Shown: positions 34,232-41,340 of the stretch, one piece after another
Layout: each line of letters opens with the position of its first letter
Numbering within the stretch: position 1 is the stretch's first letter
Source of the DNA: Vulcanimicrobiota bacterium
GTDB lineage: Bacteria; Vulcanimicrobiota; Vulcanimicrobiia; Vulcanimicrobiales; Vulcanimicrobiaceae
Assembly (NCBI GenBank): GCA_027452165.1
Contig: DAIDGX010000023.1
Location: 186,001 to 250,000, forward strand
Length of the DNA stretch: 64,000 bases
Reading direction: 5' to 3'
The notes under the pieces: model-generated
What the model was told of the DNA's origin: nothing
Seen by the model: the letters and a program-made list of their open reading frames with translations, nothing else
Database searches by the model: none
Program-made: the position numbers and the translations under genes

Positions 34232-34331
34232 GCGAACGTTTCGCCCCTAGCTTGCGTTCTTCTGAACGTACGCGTAACCGTTTACCCGCATGCCTATCAT
34301 GCGGAGATTTGCTACGAAGGAGGTGTATTTC

Positions 34332-34718
34332 ATGAAAAAGACGCTCGCATCGCTCGTTGCCGCGGCACTCCTGATGGCCGCTCCGGCCATGGCTGCCAAC
34401 GCGACCAAGGGACACCCGGCCGCGAAGACGACCACCAAGGCTGCTGCCAAGACCAAGGCTGCCACCAAGGCCAAGGCTGCAACCAAGTCGACCAAGTCGA
34501 TGAAGTCGATGAAGTCGGCCAAGCCGGCTCCGAAGGCGACCAAGAAGCCGGTCCTTCAAAAGACGGCCGACAAGGTAGCCCCGAAGAAGGCCGCTGCCAA
34601 GAAGCCGGCGGCAAAGAAGGCCGCTGCCAAGAAACCGGCGGCAAAGAAGGCCGCGAAGACTTCGAAGAAGTCGATGAAGTCGGCCAAGCCGGCTCCGAAG
34701 GCAACCAAGAAGCCGTAA
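34332..34718 (+). CDS. exported lysine/alanine-repeat protein (histone H1-like composition)
   Basis: 128 residues from ATG 34332, which has a near-ideal AAGGAGG site; the in-frame upstream ATG at 34290 lacks one. A textbook signal peptide is present (MKKTLASLVAAALLMA, cleavage after PAMA). The mature ~105 residues are almost only Lys, Ala, Pro, Thr and Ser, in units such as KKPAAKKAAA and KSMKSAKPAPKATKKP, the composition of H1-like nucleoid proteins. Export is at odds with a nucleoid role; binding to acidic envelope polymers or extracellular DNA is a guess. It is monocistronic between two terminators. Confidence 0.7.
   Translation: MKKTLASLVAAALLMAAPAMAANATKGHPAAKTTTKAAAKTKAATKAKAATKSTKSMKSMKSAKPAPKATKKPVLQKTADKVAPKKAAAKKPAAKKAAAKKPAAKKAAKTSKKSMKSAKPAPKATKKP
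34503..34715 (+). repeat. 48-bp and 30-bp direct repeats inside the lysine/alanine-rich gene
   Basis: 34503-34550 recurs at 34668-34715 with one mismatch in 48 bases. Between them a 30-base unit is repeated in tandem at 34590-34619 and 34620-34649, also with one mismatch. The near identity at DNA level, including silent positions, points to recent duplication or slippage, so repeat number may vary between strains. Confidence 0.85.
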
Positions 34719-35316: not shown

Positions 35317-36012
35317 TCATCGAGCGCGAACGGCGCGCGCCCGGTTCATCTTTGCAATGATCGGCGGCGTCGGGCAGATGTCGCGTACCGGACAGCTCCC
35401 GCAACGCGGCGTCGGCGCCTTACAGATCGCACGTCCGTGCAAGATCAACCAATGGTGGGCAAACCGCCATTTTGCTTTTGGCACGAGCTTCGTGACGTCT
35501 TCTTCCACCTGGCGCGGCGTGGTGCCGAGGGTCAGACCCAGCCTGTGCGCGACGCGAAACACGTGCGTATCCACGGCGAAGGCCGCTTCGTCGAAAGCGA
35601 CCGACATGACGACGCTCGCGGTTTTACGCCCCACGCCGGCCAGACCTTCGAGCGCCTCGCGCTCGCGTGGAACGACGCCGCCGTGCACCTCAACGAGATC
35701 GCGCGCGGCGCTGATGATGTTCTTCGCTTTCATGCGGTAAAACCCGCACGATTTGATGATCGCCTCGACGTCGTGCTGCCTGGCGCGCGCTAGCGCCTGG
35801 GGCGTCGGGTACTTGGCGAAAAGATGCGGCGTGGTCAGGTTGACGCGCGCGTCGGTGCATTGCGCGGAGAGAATTACCGCGATCAATAACTCGAAGGGGT
35901 TGTGATACTCGAGCGCCGTTACGGCATGCGCATAATTGCGCTCGAGAATCGCAAGTTCTTCAAGCGCGCGTGCGCGGGTGACGCGTTTAGCGGGAAAGGG
36001 TATCGCCGGCAT
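35317..36012 (-). CDS. nth: endonuclease III (DNA glycosylase/AP lyase)
   Basis: 231 residues. The helix-hairpin-helix LEGLAGVGRKTASVV carries the catalytic lysine, the catalytic aspartate lies in AVDTHVFRV, and the 4Fe-4S cluster cysteines are C197, C204, C207 and C213 (C-X6-C-X2-C-X5-C). It removes oxidised pyrimidines and nicks abasic sites in base excision repair. The second Fe-S glycosylase of this pathway, MutY, is encoded 5 kb away. ATG 36012 is divergent from the TPR/ATP-grasp gene across 38 bases. Confidence 0.95.
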   Translation of the reverse strand: MPAIPFPAKRVTRARALEELAILERNYAHAVTALEYHNPFELLIAVILSAQCTDARVNLTTPHLFAKYPTPQALARARQHDVEAIIKSCGFYRMKAKNIISAARDLVEVHGGVVPREREALEGLAGVGRKTASVVMSVAFDEAAFAVDTHVFRVAHRLGLTLGTTPRQVEEDVTKLVPKAKWRFAHHWLILHGRAICKAPTPRCGSCPVRDICPTPPIIAKMNRARAVRAR

Positions 36013-36050: not shown

Positions 36051-37334
36051 ATGCCGCCTATGACGCAGCATGTGCCAAGTATCGCCGAAAGCAACGCCCA
36101 CGCGATCGCGCTGCGCGACGCGGGACGGTTCCCCGAGGCGATCGCCGCCTTTCGCGAGGCGATCGCCGTGTTTCCAACTGCCGTGACGCTCCGCCAAAAC
36201 CTGGCCCAGGTGCTGTACGAATCGGGCGACGTGCCCACGGCTATCGCCGAACACGAGATCGTGCTCGCCGCAAACGAGCGCGACCTCGCCTCGCACCTCG
36301 CACTCTCGGAACTCTACCAGATCACCGGAGACCGCGAGCGCGCGCTCGCCCACCAGCGACGCGTCCTCGACCAGCAGCGCCTCTTTTCGAGCATCGCGCC
36401 GAACGAACGCCGACGCGTCCTCATCCTGTGCGCTCCGGGTGATTGGCAAGCGAACATTCCGGTCGATTTTCTGCTCGACCGCACGACCACGACCGTGCAC
36501 AAGCTTTACTTGCTGGACACCGATCGCCTGATGCGTGAGACGATCCCGGAGCACGACGTCATTTGGAATACGATCGCCGAATCACCCGAAGCGCGACCCC
36601 ATCTCGCGCTGGCCGCGCTCGTCGAACGCGCCGCGCAGCGGCCCTTCCTCAACGCCCCGGAACGCGTCCTCGCGACCGCACGCTTAGAGCTGGGCGCAAC
36701 CCTCGCGCACAGCGGGGCCCGCGTCGCCCCGATCGCCGAGATTACCCGCACCGAGCTCATACAAGCCAACATCCCCTTTGCATTTCCAATCATCGCGCGC
36801 CCAGTCGGCTCGCACGCGGGTCACGGACTCGAACGGCTCGATGAAGCGGCCGCGTGCGCTGCTTACGTCGAGCGCACCGCGTACGACGCGTTCTACGTGA
36901 GCCCGTTCGTCGATTATCGCAACGCCGACGGGTACTATCGCAAATACCGTATCATCTTTGTTGACGGGCAAGCGTTTGCCGTGCACCTGGCGATCTCGCC
37001 GAACTGGATGATTCACTACTACAACGCGCCGATGGCCGACAACCAGTGGATGCGCGATGAAGAAGCGCGCTTTCTCGCCGGCGTGCAGCACGTCTTCGAC
37101 GGCGAGCGGGCCGACGCGCTCGACCGGATAGCGAGCGCCGTGGGGCTCGAGTATTTTGGCATCGACTGCACGCTCGACCCCGACGGCCGCGTCTTCGTCT
37201 TCGAGGCCGATCCGGCGATGCTCGTTCACACAAGCGATCCGATCGAACGCTATCCTTACAAACACGAGTATATTCCACGCATCTATCGTGCAGTGGAAAG
37301 GATGATCGATCGGCGCAAAGCTGCCGATATGTAA
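36051..37334 (+). CDS. TPR and ATP-grasp domain protein
   Basis: 427 residues. Residues about 10-110 form three TPR-like repeats (AIALRDAGRFPEAIAAFREA, AQVLYESGDVPTAIAEHE, SELYQITGDRERALAHQ). The rest resembles a RimK/D-Ala-D-Ala-ligase-type ATP-grasp: a Rossmann-like pre-domain (RVLILCAP, HKLYLLDTD), the ATP-binding lysine region replaced by PIIARPVGSHAGHGLERL, YRKYRIIFVDGQAFAVHLA, and the metal-binding end FGIDCTLDPDGRVFVFEAD. Such enzymes ligate a carboxylate to an amine using ATP. The expected lysine of the first ATP motif reads as Arg, so activity is unproven. Seven bases separate it from the FAD gene, and the third gene overlaps, so the three likely form one pathway. Confidence 0.7.
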   Translation: MPPMTQHVPSIAESNAHAIALRDAGRFPEAIAAFREAIAVFPTAVTLRQNLAQVLYESGDVPTAIAEHEIVLAANERDLASHLALSELYQITGDRERALAHQRRVLDQQRLFSSIAPNERRRVLILCAPGDWQANIPVDFLLDRTTTTVHKLYLLDTDRLMRETIPEHDVIWNTIAESPEARPHLALAALVERAAQRPFLNAPERVLATARLELGATLAHSGARVAPIAEITRTELIQANIPFAFPIIARPVGSHAGHGLERLDEAAACAAYVERTAYDAFYVSPFVDYRNADGYYRKYRIIFVDGQAFAVHLAISPNWMIHYYNAPMADNQWMRDEEARFLAGVQHVFDGERADALDRIASAVGLEYFGIDCTLDPDGRVFVFEADPAMLVHTSDPIERYPYKHEYIPRIYRAVERMIDRRKAADM

Positions 37335-37341
37335 AAGAGCC

Positions 37342-38697
37342 ATGGAATCGCGCGCAGCGCTCGACCTCGCCGTCATCGGCGGGGGCGTCTCCGGGTCGGC
37401 CCTTGCGATTGCCCTTGCGGGGCACGCGCCACCGACCGCGGCCGCGGCATTCTTCGATCCCTCCGCGCTTGGCCCAGGCACCGCCTACGCACCCCAATCT
37501 GCAAGTTTGCTGCTCAACGGTCCCGTGCGCGCCATGTCGATCGTCCCGGGCGATCCGCGGCACCTCGCCCGCTATCTCGTGGACGAACCCGACGACGCAT
37601 TGATCTGCCGCGCGCGCTACGGCGCCTACGCGCGGGCAACCACCTCAGCGGCCATGGCATCACACACCGGTTTTCGTCACGAACCGAGCGCGGTCGTCAA
37701 CATCGAACGCGCATCATGCGGCTTCGTGCTCGACGACTCACACGGCGCGCGTTGGGCAGCACGCAATGTTGTGTTCGCGATGGGGAACCTCGAGCCCGAT
37801 GCCAGTTCGTTCCCGCTTGCGCTGCGCACGTCGGCGCATTTTGCAAACGATCCGTGGCGCGTGGACGTGGGGCGATTTGCGCACGGAGACGTAGCGCTGA
37901 TAGGAAGCCGGCTCACCGCGATGGACACGATCGCCCTGCTCGACGAACGTGCGTTCCGCGGCCGCATCCACCTGATCTCGCGGCACGGCCGAATTCCTTT
38001 CGTCGAGGACCCACGCATCCGCGGCGACGCCCGGGTTCTCGCGCAGTTGGATACGAGCACACCGTTACGCCTGCTGCGCTCGCTGCGCCGCGTCGCGCGT
38101 ACCTATTGCGGCGACTGGCGCGCGATCGTTGAAGCGCTGCGACCGGTCACGCCTGCCACGTGGGAAACCTGGAGCGAGCGCGATCGGCGGCGCTTCTTGC
38201 GCCATCTTGAAGCACTGTGGGCGATTCACCGCTATCGCGTGCCCGCGGCGACGTTTGCCGTATTTGCGCGACTACGTGCCGAAGGCCGCATCGAGGTTCA
38301 TCGCGGGCGCATCGCGGACGCGACCGCGATGGAACGTGGTCTCGCGCTCGAGATCGCATGCGGCGAGACGCGCAGCACGCTTCGCGTCGCAGGGGCGATC
38401 AATTGCACTGGTCCGAACGCCGATGTGCGACGCATAACGCAGCCGCTCGTCCAACGTGCGCTCGAACGAGGAATCATCACCCCGGATCCGCTGCGCCTTG
38501 GGATTCGCGTCACCGCCGACCTGCGTGTCGTCGGTTCCGATGGAGCGGCTGATGCGCACGCGTTCGCGATCGGCCCGCTCGTGCGCGGACAATTCTACGA
38601 GACGACGGCGATACCGGAAATCACGCGACAGGCCGACGTCATCGCGCGCACACTCCTCCAGGATTTTCGCTCCACGCCACGCGCAGAGGCTTCATGA
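37342..38697 (+). CDS. FAD/NAD(P)-binding oxidoreductase of the COG4529 type
   Basis: 451 residues. N-terminal dinucleotide fold LAVIGGGVSGSALAIAL; the next conserved stretch GPGTAYAP and LLNGPVRAMS is typical of the COG4529/NAD_binding_9 family; a second nucleotide-binding segment is DVALIGSRLTAMD (about 190) and the FAD-closing motif is near GAINCTGPNAD. Family members are poorly characterised flavoproteins, sometimes linked to hydroxylation or to sulfur metabolism. It starts seven bases after the ATP-grasp gene and overlaps the dioxygenase gene by four bases (ATGA). Substrate unknown. Confidence 0.78.
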   Translation: MESRAALDLAVIGGGVSGSALAIALAGHAPPTAAAAFFDPSALGPGTAYAPQSASLLLNGPVRAMSIVPGDPRHLARYLVDEPDDALICRARYGAYARATTSAAMASHTGFRHEPSAVVNIERASCGFVLDDSHGARWAARNVVFAMGNLEPDASSFPLALRTSAHFANDPWRVDVGRFAHGDVALIGSRLTAMDTIALLDERAFRGRIHLISRHGRIPFVEDPRIRGDARVLAQLDTSTPLRLLRSLRRVARTYCGDWRAIVEALRPVTPATWETWSERDRRRFLRHLEALWAIHRYRVPAATFAVFARLRAEGRIEVHRGRIADATAMERGLALEIACGETRSTLRVAGAINCTGPNADVRRITQPLVQRALERGIITPDPLRLGIRVTADLRVVGSDGAADAHAFAIGPLVRGQFYETTAIPEITRQADVIARTLLQDFRSTPRAEAS

Positions 38698-39212
38698 TCG
38701 AGATGACCAAACGCAGCATTTCCGACGTCATCGACGTTCCCGAGTTCGCCGCCGCGCTGCAGCGAGGCATCGACGCATTCGATCGCTATCGCTCGATGAT
38801 GCCGCCCACACGCAACGGATACACGCGTACGTTGCTCGAAAAGCATTCGCATTACGAATTGGTCGGCATGCTCTGGGCGCCCGGCTCAAAGAGCCCGATC
38901 CACGATCATGGTCCCTCACGCTGTTGGGTCGTGCTGATGGACGGGACGCTCGAAGTCGAGAATTATGAACGCGATGACGATGACGATGCGATACCGCACT
39001 TGAAGCACGTGGCGACGGAACTGCTCGGCGCTGGAGCGATCGATTACCGTCTGAATCGCAAGGAATTGCACCGCGTACGCAATCGCGACGACGCAGCAGC
39101 GTACTCATTACAACTCTACGCCGCACCGCTCTCCGACTATACGATCGTGGATGACCTCACCGGCCGTGCGCGGCGCATGCGCGCGCACTACGACGCCGTC
39201 GTCGATCTCTGA
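38694..39212 (+). CDS. cysteine/thiol dioxygenase (cupin)
   Basis: 172 residues. Cupin motif one gives the iron ligands H70 and H72 in SPIHDHGPSRCW, with C77 at the place of the Cys of the Cys-Tyr cofactor in mammalian cysteine dioxygenase. GTLEVENY completes the motif. The third iron ligand would be H126 (ELHRVRN), and Y142 in LYAAPL matches the catalytic tyrosine. The enzyme is expected to oxidise a thiol to a sulfinate with O2; free cysteine, 3-mercaptopropionate or a peptide-linked thiol are possible. Co-occurrence with an ATP-grasp ligase suggests the substrate may be made by the same operon. Its last 25 bases overlap the convergent MFS gene. Confidence 0.82.
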   Translation: MIEMTKRSISDVIDVPEFAAALQRGIDAFDRYRSMMPPTRNGYTRTLLEKHSHYELVGMLWAPGSKSPIHDHGPSRCWVVLMDGTLEVENYERDDDDDAIPHLKHVATELLGAGAIDYRLNRKELHRVRNRDDAAAYSLQLYAAPLSDYTIVDDLTGRARRMRAHYDAVVDL

Positions 39213-40417
39213 TCCGATAACGCCCGCACAGCGATCGTGAAGAGTCCCGCCGCGGCACACGCTGCGATGGCGAAGCAGGCAACGATCGCCGCCTCGAGCG
39301 GAAGTCCGGCCGCTACGGCTATGGCAATCGGCGTGCCGCATGCGAGCACCCCGGCCGCCATGCCAGCGGTACCGGCCAGCAGCGTCGCCGACGAGACGAT
39401 GCCCTCGCTGCCAGCACCGGCGCCGGCAAGCGCCGCTTGCGTAAGCGTCGGATAGGCGCATCCGATGCCCGCTCCCGCCGCGAACCACGCTGGAAATGCA
39501 AGCAAAACCGGTGCACCGAGCGCCACCACAATCATGCCCGCGCACGCGAGCAAAAGACATCCCGCGCCGCCGAGCGCAAGCACCCGCGTGCCGTAGCGCT
39601 CGAGCAGCGACGGCTGCACCGCGCTCGCGATCGACCAGCCGAGGGCGCCGAACGTCAAACAGAGTCCCGCGACAACGAGTGAGAGCGCATGCAGCAGCGT
39701 GAGATCGAGCGTAACGTATGCGTCCGCCCCAAAGAACGCGACGTGCAACAATCCGAAGGCGACAAAGGCGGCATGGCGTTGGTCGCGCATCGTCAGGGTT
39801 GCGCGGGAGACGAGCATACGCACCGATCCAAACGCATCGGCGTCGCCGCGTAGCGTCTCATGCATCTCACCGAGCGCCGGGAGCACGAGGACGGCGGCAA
39901 GCAGCACCAGCGGAAGAAACGCCGCAAAAGCATACCTCCAGCCGAGATCGGTAGCGATCAGCGCGCCGGCGCTCGGCCCGACGAGCGCCGGAATCACCCA
40001 CATGGCCGAGAGCCACGCGAACAACCGCGATCGCACGCGCTCATCGAAGTGCTTTGCGATCGCCGCGAACGACCCGGCGTAATCGAGCCCGCCACCGAGC
40101 CCTTCGATCGCGCGAGCCGATGCAAGCTGCGGCATCGAACGCGCAAGTGCCGAGCAGATAAGCCCCGCGGCGACGAGCGCGAAGGCCGTCGCGAGTACGC
40201 GCTGCGTACCAAACCGGTCCGCGAGCGGCCCGGCAAATGCCATGCCGAGCGCGCTTGCGACGAGCAGCGACCCGATCGTAACCCCGTAGAGCCCGTATCC
40301 GTGCAGGTCGGCCGCGATTCGTGGCATGATCGTCGCGATGACGAGCGCTTGCGTGGCCGACGCAAACTAGCCGACCAGCAGGCCGATCGCAAGTGCGCCA
40401 CGCCGTCCTGCGAACAC
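39188..40417 (-). pseudogene. MFS transporter interrupted by an in-frame amber codon in helix one
   Basis: From ATG 40327 the frame gives 379 residues with about eleven helices, including the MFS motif GPLADRFGTQR between helices two and three. Upstream of that ATG the same frame continues as recognisable MFS helix-one sequence (FASATQALVIATIMPRI), is broken by TAG at 40367-40369, and continues further as GRRGALAIGLLVG back to GTG 40417, five bases after the mutY stop. The intact gene would be about 409 codons. Either the gene is a recent nonsense pseudogene, or a shortened protein starts at 40327 without a complete first helix, or the base is a sequencing error (TGG or CAG to TAG). Confidence 0.72.
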
Positions 40418-40419
40418 CG

Positions 40420-41340
40420 TTACTCGCGCAACGCGACGTAGGCGCCGTCACGCGCGACGAGCCCGTCACGCTCGAGCGAGCCGATCAAGCGCTCGACGTC
40501 CTCGAACGTTCGCTCGGGCATCAACGATTGCACGTCATCGTAGAGCATCAGGAGCGAGATACGTTGGCCCGGCGCGAGTTCGCGCAAGCGATCGACGATG
40601 CGCCCGCGGGCGTAACGTGTTGTTCGCTCGAACGGCAGCGCGTTCTGCGGCGAGGGTTTCTTGGCGTGCAGCCGGCGGGCCGTATCCAGTGCGGCCGCGT
40701 CGATCGGTGCCGCAGCGCACAGCTCGCGCAACGGACAGACGAGGCATTTCGGCGCGCGCGCGCTGCAGACGCTAGCACCCAAATCCATCATCGCCGAGCT
40801 CCAGTCGTGCGCGCTGCCTGCCGGCAGCAAAGCACGCGCGCGTGCGTCGATCTGCCGCGCGTCCGCGCGCGGCGGATATTCGAAGCCAAAGAACAGACGA
40901 TGCACGATCCGGCGCACGTTGGTATCGATCGGCGCGTCGTCCTCGTCGTACCCGAAGGCCCGGATGGCCGCAACCGTATAGGGACCGATCCCGGGGAGTC
41001 CGCGCAGCGCCTGCGCGTCGCGCGGAAGGACGCCGTCATAACGCTGCGTCACCTCGATCGCAAGCGCCCGCAGTCGGACCGCACGGGAGTTATATCCCAG
41101 CCCTTGCCACATGCGAAGCACCTCGGCAACACTCGACGCGGCCAGCGCCGCGAGCGTTGGGAAACGCTCCACAAACGCAAGGAATTTCGGTACCACCCGA
41201 TCGACCTGCGTCTGTTGCAGCATGCACTCGCTCACGAGCGTGTAGTACGGATCGCGCGTGCTGCGCCACGGCAGCGACGAGCGTCCATGCTCGCGGTACC
41301 ATGCTAGGAGCGCGCAGCGTATCGCGCGTTCGTCGCTCAC
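40420..41340 (-). CDS. mutY: A/G-specific adenine glycosylase MutY, shortened C-terminus
   Basis: 306 residues from GTG 41340 (GTGA overlap with the upstream regulator gene). MutY hallmarks: N-terminal LPWRSTRDPYYTLVSECMLQQTQV, helix-hairpin-helix LRGLPGIGPYTVAAI, catalytic Asp in PIDTNVRR, and cluster cysteines C192, C199, C202 and C208. It excises adenine paired with 8-oxoguanine. The usual ~350-residue form ends in a NUDIX-like 8-oxoG-reading domain; here only about 98 residues follow the cluster and resemble a small winged helix (LIGSLERDGLVARDG). Recognition of 8-oxoG may differ. Confidence 0.9.
   Translation of the reverse strand: MSDERAIRCALLAWYREHGRSSLPWRSTRDPYYTLVSECMLQQTQVDRVVPKFLAFVERFPTLAALAASSVAEVLRMWQGLGYNSRAVRLRALAIEVTQRYDGVLPRDAQALRGLPGIGPYTVAAIRAFGYDEDDAPIDTNVRRIVHRLFFGFEYPPRADARQIDARARALLPAGSAHDWSSAMMDLGASVCSARAPKCLVCPLRELCAAAPIDAAALDTARRLHAKKPSPQNALPFERTTRYARGRIVDRLRELAPGQRISLLMLYDDVQSLMPERTFEDVERLIGSLERDGLVARDGAYVALRE

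Follow-up and report, generated by a model that had tools for sequence, protein, structure and literature searches.

Three closely spaced genes in a genome of Candidatus Eremiobacterota (2.6 Mb, 27 contigs) encode a TPR-containing protein with a predicted ATP-grasp ligase domain (hereafter ATPg), a flavoprotein (FLAV) and a cysteine dioxygenase family protein (CDO), which raises the question whether the three proteins act in one pathway and what this pathway would produce. A sequence-only reading of the locus had proposed such a pathway, with an ATP-dependent ligation making or carrying a thiol that is then oxidized to a sulfinate. Here, the locus is analyzed within its window, i.e., the whole stretch of 64,000 nucleotides to which all positions refer, and across 149 genomes of the phylum, the only one covered in depth and represented largely by metagenomic assemblies.

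Organization and conservation of the locus

The open reading frame coordinates, re-read from the window, place all three genes on the forward strand, at positions 36051–37334 (ATPg), 37342–38697 (FLAV) and 38694–39212 (CDO). ATPg and FLAV are separated by 7 bases, and FLAV and CDO share a 4-base start/stop overlap, ATGA (38694–38697), exactly as the sequence-only reading had it. The flanking genes, identified by Pfam and synteny, are all on the reverse strand. Upstream is the divergent nth gene (endonuclease III; 35317–36012), a syntenic flank outside the pathway. Downstream, an MFS transporter gene (39188–40327) is convergent with the CDO gene, overlapping it by 25 bases, and is followed by another syntenic flank, mutY (adenine glycosylase; 40420–41340).

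Homologs of the cassette with 44–77% identity are present in 10 genomes where the gene order and overlaps are kept, which excludes chance open reading frames. These 10 genomes, from 5 genera (G000, G097, G098, G088, G089, G056, G057, G073, G074 and G058), encode ligase-FLAV-CDO in this order next to nth, with mutY beyond the cassette wherever the contig extends that far. Hence the genes adjoin each other well beyond the host genome, the first of two tests that the sequence-only reading had set for itself. The ligase-FLAV gap is 3–8 bases in most cassette genomes; the 4-base FLAV/CDO overlap recurs and is possible at most other loci whose junction is intact. The MFS transporter is at most an optional companion of the cassette given that only some cassette genomes have one at this site (found in L036, L037, L040 and L045, absent from L041, L042 and L043). 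Partial versions of the arrangement exist as well: in genus g2, two genomes encode ligase-FLAV next to nth and lack CDO there, and genus g12 has FLAV-CDO at the nth/mutY site with the ligase missing.

The FLAV/CDO pair and its sulfur context

With an E-value threshold of 1e-30, 52 FLAV loci are found across the 149 genomes. With a pair defined as FLAV and CDO in the same orientation and at most 1 kb apart, 40 of these loci are paired, almost evenly split between the FLAV-CDO (21) and CDO-FLAV (19) orders; the remaining 12 have no CDO. Many of the pairs occur without the ligase, among them those in g5, g12 and g34, and in the CDO tree, the reversed pairs are spread over at least two lineages. 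No other evidence of a function shared by FLAV and CDO is as strong as this repeated pairing, in differing gene orders and locations. FLAV and CDO are the core and the oldest unit of the cassette, and the ligase is a newcomer. The shared pathway proposed by the sequence-only reading is thus supported by the conserved gene order, with its center shifted to a pair that also exists ligase-free and reversed.

The genomic context of FLAV frequently points to sulfur. In one genome (G074), a second pair lies directly behind a sulfate transporter operon, in the order Sbp-CysT-CysW-CysA-CDO-FLAV; here, CysT, CysW and Sbp score above the NCBIfam cut-offs, and CysA above the cut-off of the sulfate-subfamily model. 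Among 14 plasmid regions from Proteobacteria and Streptomyces that encode FLAV relatives, picked from the best-scoring annotated matches and so not a random sample, 6 contain sulfate, sulfonate or taurine genes within 5 kb. A FLAV relative from Verrucomicrobium adjoins cysT and cysW genes. The CDO queries yield no match in the plasmid collection, and no FLAV/CDO pair was found there. Of the 30 CDO loci viewed in 25 Actinobacteria that encode FLAV relatives, none adjoins FLAV, and the pairing may therefore be phylum-specific; a search by alignment against 198 Actinobacteria, with an E-value threshold of 1e-15, came back empty, a result that says little. No dominant family is apparent among the neighbors of the actinobacterial FLAV relatives.

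FLAV, a flavoprotein with an N-hydroxylase-like fold

The FLAV protein (451 residues) belongs to PF13454 (E-value 7e-23), a family of FAD/NAD(P)-binding flavoproteins. A profile search started with an alignment of 50 relatives identifies L-aspartate N-hydroxylase (8cp2/8cp5) as the top structure, with an E-value of 1.8e-24 compared to 1.8e-07 for the next best. The same is the case for a Foldseek search with the AlphaFold2 model (mean pLDDT 93.6), in which the best match, 8cp2 (E-value 4e-21), is followed by ornithine, lysine and diamine N-hydroxylases (PvdA, DesB, KtzI). The protein shares with class-B N-hydroxylating monooxygenases the FAD and NADPH dinucleotide motifs (G13-x-G15 and G188...D195, both invariant) and a modeled helical domain. 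A plain pyridine-nucleotide reductase was considered and rejected because reductases rank below aspartate N-hydroxylase in both profile and fold searches.

Three further residues, N59, R267 and R297, are invariant. The 8cp2 structure has a cluster of arginines that binds the substrate and an active-site residue, Asn62, that faces the flavin (PMC10404684). N59 is equivalent to Asn62 and is present in all 50 FLAV family sequences, but Arg13 of the substrate site is not conserved, its aligned counterpart being Ser17, and the other residues of the arginine cluster fall in a region that is not alignable to FLAV by sequence. Given that Asn62 is retained but Arg13 is replaced, FLAV is best described as N-hydroxylase-like in its predicted fold and is not called an aspartate N-hydroxylase. 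The sequence-only reading had named the family correctly and overlooked both the kinship to N-hydroxylating monooxygenases and the frequent sulfur context.

CDO, a natural SQY variant of cysteine dioxygenase

The CDO protein is a cupin of PF05995, cysteine dioxygenase type I, with a score of 53.2 bits compared to the cut-off of 23. Six residues are invariant in all nine full cassette CDOs aligned, namely, the metal ligands H70, H72 and H126, along with C77 and Y142, all correctly listed in the sequence-only reading, and R45. The latter aligns with the YTR motif of mammalian CDO (the mammalian alignment row served only as a ruler; PDB sequences give the same alignment), i.e., the carboxylate-binding residue of the Arg type (Arg60) is kept. 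The retention of Arg45 argues in favor of a free cysteine-like substrate. The cysteine of the Cys-Tyr pair (C77 and Y142 here) is present also in most CDOs of the phylum, although according to PMC8050391 the bacterial enzymes employ an unmodified tyrosine.

The enzyme is not canonical, however, which the sequence-only assignment to the cysteine dioxygenase type, otherwise sound, had missed. The Ser-His-Tyr (SHY) relay of canonical small-molecule thiol dioxygenases (Ser153-His155-Tyr157 of CDO) is broken: position 140, that of the relay histidine, is glutamine in every cassette CDO that covers the region (S/T138-Q140-Y142), whereas histidine is found in the g12 orthologs, which occupy the same genomic site, and in nearly all other CDOs of the phylum (one sequence, L247, is apparently misaligned around this position). 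The best PDB match of the window protein is itself a CDO chain with SLQ at this place, in contrast to SLH in the other CDO chains among the matches listed. Substitution of the relay histidine lowers kcat by about two orders of magnitude in CDO (H155A) and about 20-fold in MDO (H157N) (PMC10966181). Because replacement by Asn or Ala is that costly, by analogy the activity or substrate of the cassette CDO may differ from those of its canonical relatives. In the CDO tree, the glutamine-containing sequences form a single clade, with the g12 clade as the sister group, so that the SQY change would map to the branch where the ligase joined (unless the other branch lost it). To judge from these sequences, the ligase joined in one event, and its link with the SQY variant rests on one inherited change.

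The predicted ATP-grasp ligase and a PLP-dependent decarboxylase

Within ATPg, Pfam recognizes only the TPRs (residues 11–108, positions 36081–36374); the C-terminal two thirds are not covered by any Pfam model. The AlphaFold2 model (mean pLDDT 86.6, from nine input sequences) consists of three TPRs and an ATP-grasp domain (residues 121–427, positions 36411–37331) for which a Foldseek search identifies LysX/ArgX, D-Ala-D-Ala ligases and synapsin-type proteins (best E-value 1.6e-11, probability 1.00), in accord with the domain assignment made from the sequence; the fold is thus present in the prediction, the second of the two tests. The conserved residues are R250-P-x-G-S-H-A-G, K298-Y-R300, D372, E385-A-D387 and H393. 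Arg250 occupies the usual position of the ATP-binding lysine, and E385-A-D387 replaces the E-x-N metal site, both features being kept in close relatives. Since Lys to Arg and E-x-N to E-A-D are conservative changes, ligase activity appears possible.

The host genome encodes 5 paralogs of the ligase, and other genomes up to 11; relatives are found also in Rhizobium, Paraburkholderia and Cupriavidus. The gene contexts of the host-genome paralogs reveal no common partner. In non-cassette genera, the nearest relatives of the cassette ligase adjoin a PF00282 decarboxylase gene, between glmU and a GGDEF gene; in the cassette genomes, the decarboxylase is still at this site, and the ligase is gone from there. 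Strong matches to the ligase and the decarboxylase occur together in 41 genomes (41/43), with 2 genomes containing only the ligase and 2 only the decarboxylase (Fisher's test, 9e-32; as the genomes share ancestry and the thresholds were chosen by eye, this figure is not a true probability). The tree of the ligases places the cassette clade among decarboxylase-linked clades, with weak support for the deep nodes. These observations can be read as relocation of the ligase from the decarboxylase site to FLAV/CDO. In Rhizobium tumorigenes, a TPR/ATP-grasp relative is encoded two genes before a PLP decarboxylase.

The decarboxylase itself is most similar to tryptophan, DOPA and diaminobutyrate decarboxylases. 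Its identification as a clear cysteine sulfinate decarboxylase is unsupported (141 bits, against 233 bits for the nearest matches).

A tentative pathway and its alternatives

Taken together, these observations are best compatible with a three-enzyme oxidation-and-ligation operon that yields a conjugated oxidized-sulfur metabolite, a reading that we hold tentatively, at a probability of roughly 0.45. CDO would convert a cysteine-like thiol to a sulfinate, in the simplest case L-cysteine to L-cysteine sulfinate, an aspartate isostere. FLAV, as a class-B monooxygenase of the aspartate N-hydroxylase type that uses NADPH and FAD, would then place oxygen onto the CDO product, either on the sulfinate, giving a sulfonate, or on the amine. 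In the last step, the TPR/ATP-grasp protein would activate a carboxylate with ATP and form an amide, and the PLP decarboxylase encoded elsewhere may supply the amine partner or trim the product. The CDO and ligase steps are predicted from family and fold, and the FLAV step from pairing and fold; we infer the substrate, the order of the steps, the choice between S- and N-oxygenation, and the product. Nothing shows the ligation-first order of the sequence-only reading, and the argument from Arg45 favors, without proving it, oxidation before ligation.

Among the alternatives, the one that appears possible, if doubtful, is that FLAV is a genuine N-hydroxylase, and the operon makes an N-oxidized cysteine product (N-hydroxy, oxime, nitro or S-N bonded) which the ligase joins to another amino acid in the synthesis of a specialized metabolite. 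Amine N-hydroxylases are indeed the best structural matches of FLAV, cysteine sulfinate would mimic aspartate, the substrate of 8cp2, as its isostere, and orphan sulfonamide-type clusters that pair ATP-grasp genes with a cysteine-oxidizing cupin have been reported (PMC9113183). However, the substrate-site arginine is a serine in FLAV, the shorter helical domain defies alignment by sequence, and the sulfur-transport context of FLAV relatives suits sulfur assimilation equally well. A more elaborate form, in which the SQY dioxygenase and FLAV act one after the other on cysteine to give an N-oxidized (or S-N) sulfinate that is amidated by a new family of TPR/ATP-grasp enzymes, we consider rather unlikely; it would amount to a novel route to N-O or S-N sulfur metabolites in a phylum that has hardly been studied.

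The ligase might also be a chance neighbor recruited by a promoter, with FLAV and CDO simply removing surplus sulfur from cysteine, by way of a sulfinate made from the thiol and then converted to sulfite or sulfate. This would account for the pairs without a ligase in g5, g12 and g34, the copy behind the sulfate transporter operon, and the abundance of ligase paralogs; nevertheless, it seems unlikely given that the ligase-FLAV-CDO order and the short gaps persist across 5 genera whose genomes have diverged, and that the CDO relay residue changed on the same branch. A taurine-type route would combine CDO (cysteine sulfinate), the PLP decarboxylase (hypotaurine), FLAV (taurine, as with mammalian FMO1) and the ligase (conjugation of taurine). 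All four activities could coexist in the same genomes, and FLAV, a predicted class-B monooxygenase, has relatives near taurine or sulfonate genes. Such a route is nonetheless very unlikely because the PF00282 decarboxylase matches cysteine sulfinate decarboxylase with the lower score and is encoded at a separate locus in the cassette genomes.

If the oxidation-and-ligation reading is correct, it would assign a function to PF13454 flavoproteins, which often occur in sulfate/sulfonate clusters and for which the nearest characterized relatives found are aspartate N-hydroxylases, and to TPR/ATP-grasp ligases whose ligase domain is missed by Pfam. The same would apply to the SQY thiol dioxygenase, a naturally occurring variant with which the role of the conserved SHY histidine can be tested. 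The transfer of a sulfinate from a bacterial thiol dioxygenase to a class-B monooxygenase becomes a testable proposition.

Comparison with known systems

The component parts of the cassette are known folds, and their combination is undescribed in the literature searched. No paper on COG4529, the FLAV/CDO pair or the three-gene operon was found in the open literature, which agrees with the sequence-only reading, although this absence is weak evidence, the search having covered open papers only. ATPg has in common with LysX/ArgX, RimK and Ddl the ATP-grasp fold (by model) and an acidic metal-site pattern (D372, E385, D387), and differs from them in Arg250 instead of lysine, the motif HLAISxxWMxHYY, the fused TPRs and the lack of a Pfam family over the domain. 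The cassette CDO resembles the mammalian Arg-type CDO (PF05995) in the three histidine ligands and in Arg45, Cys77 and Tyr142, which correspond to R60, C93 and Y157 of the rat enzyme, and differs in Gln140 replacing His155 in every cassette member.

Like the L-aspartate N-hydroxylases of the FzmM/CreE type (8cp2, 8cp5; PMC10404684), FLAV is predicted to combine a helical insert with Rossmann domains for FAD and NADPH, but it is smaller (451 compared to about 616 residues), shows 19% identity over the structure alignment, has the shortened helical domain and the Arg13 to Ser17 replacement noted above, and has no adjoining lyase gene. In the SbzM-type orphan clusters of actinomycetes, compared here by their description only, a cysteine-oxidizing cupin adjoins an ATP-grasp ligase, as in the cassette; the available part of this source (PMC9113183) mentions no FLAV relative in these clusters. 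SbzM forms 2-sulfamoylacetaldehyde, and the cluster known for it, unlike the cassette, requires an aldehyde dehydrogenase. The aspartate N-hydroxylases (PMC10404684) and the cupin/ATP-grasp orphan clusters (PMC9113183) are the closest precedents for the cassette.

Gene neighborhoods of the cassette families

The TPR/ATP-grasp family is expanded in this bacterial family, with 5-11 copies per genome that are encoded in unrelated gene contexts (contigs C8, C9 and C21 of the source genome, G000; genomes G077, G091 and G092). In many Eremiobacterota genera, a TPR/ATP-grasp ligase and a PLP group-II decarboxylase (PF00282) form a conserved gene pair (e.g., locus L050, 3447-6228, and similar loci) that looks like a separate, undescribed pathway. 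In Rhizobium tumorigenes (locus L033, 6019-10770), an unclassified protein of PLP-like appearance is encoded between the ligase and the decarboxylase.

Plasmids of Shinella and Mesorhizobium carry a sulfur gene cluster in which two PF13454 flavoproteins are encoded near each other (L225, 4986-8255; L232, 4001-8725), one of them adjoined by an Rrf2-family regulator. The window itself encodes, at 34290-34718, a small protein with a signal peptide-like start and a long Lys/Ala/Pro-rich tail; the same place in related genera (L085, L104) is occupied by a protein with AAKKPMAKK repeats.

Most CDO (cysteine dioxygenase)-family proteins of this phylum (loci L144-L173) contain a cysteine at the position of the mammalian cross-link residue C93, even though bacterial CDO forms have been described as lacking the cross-link (PMC8050391).
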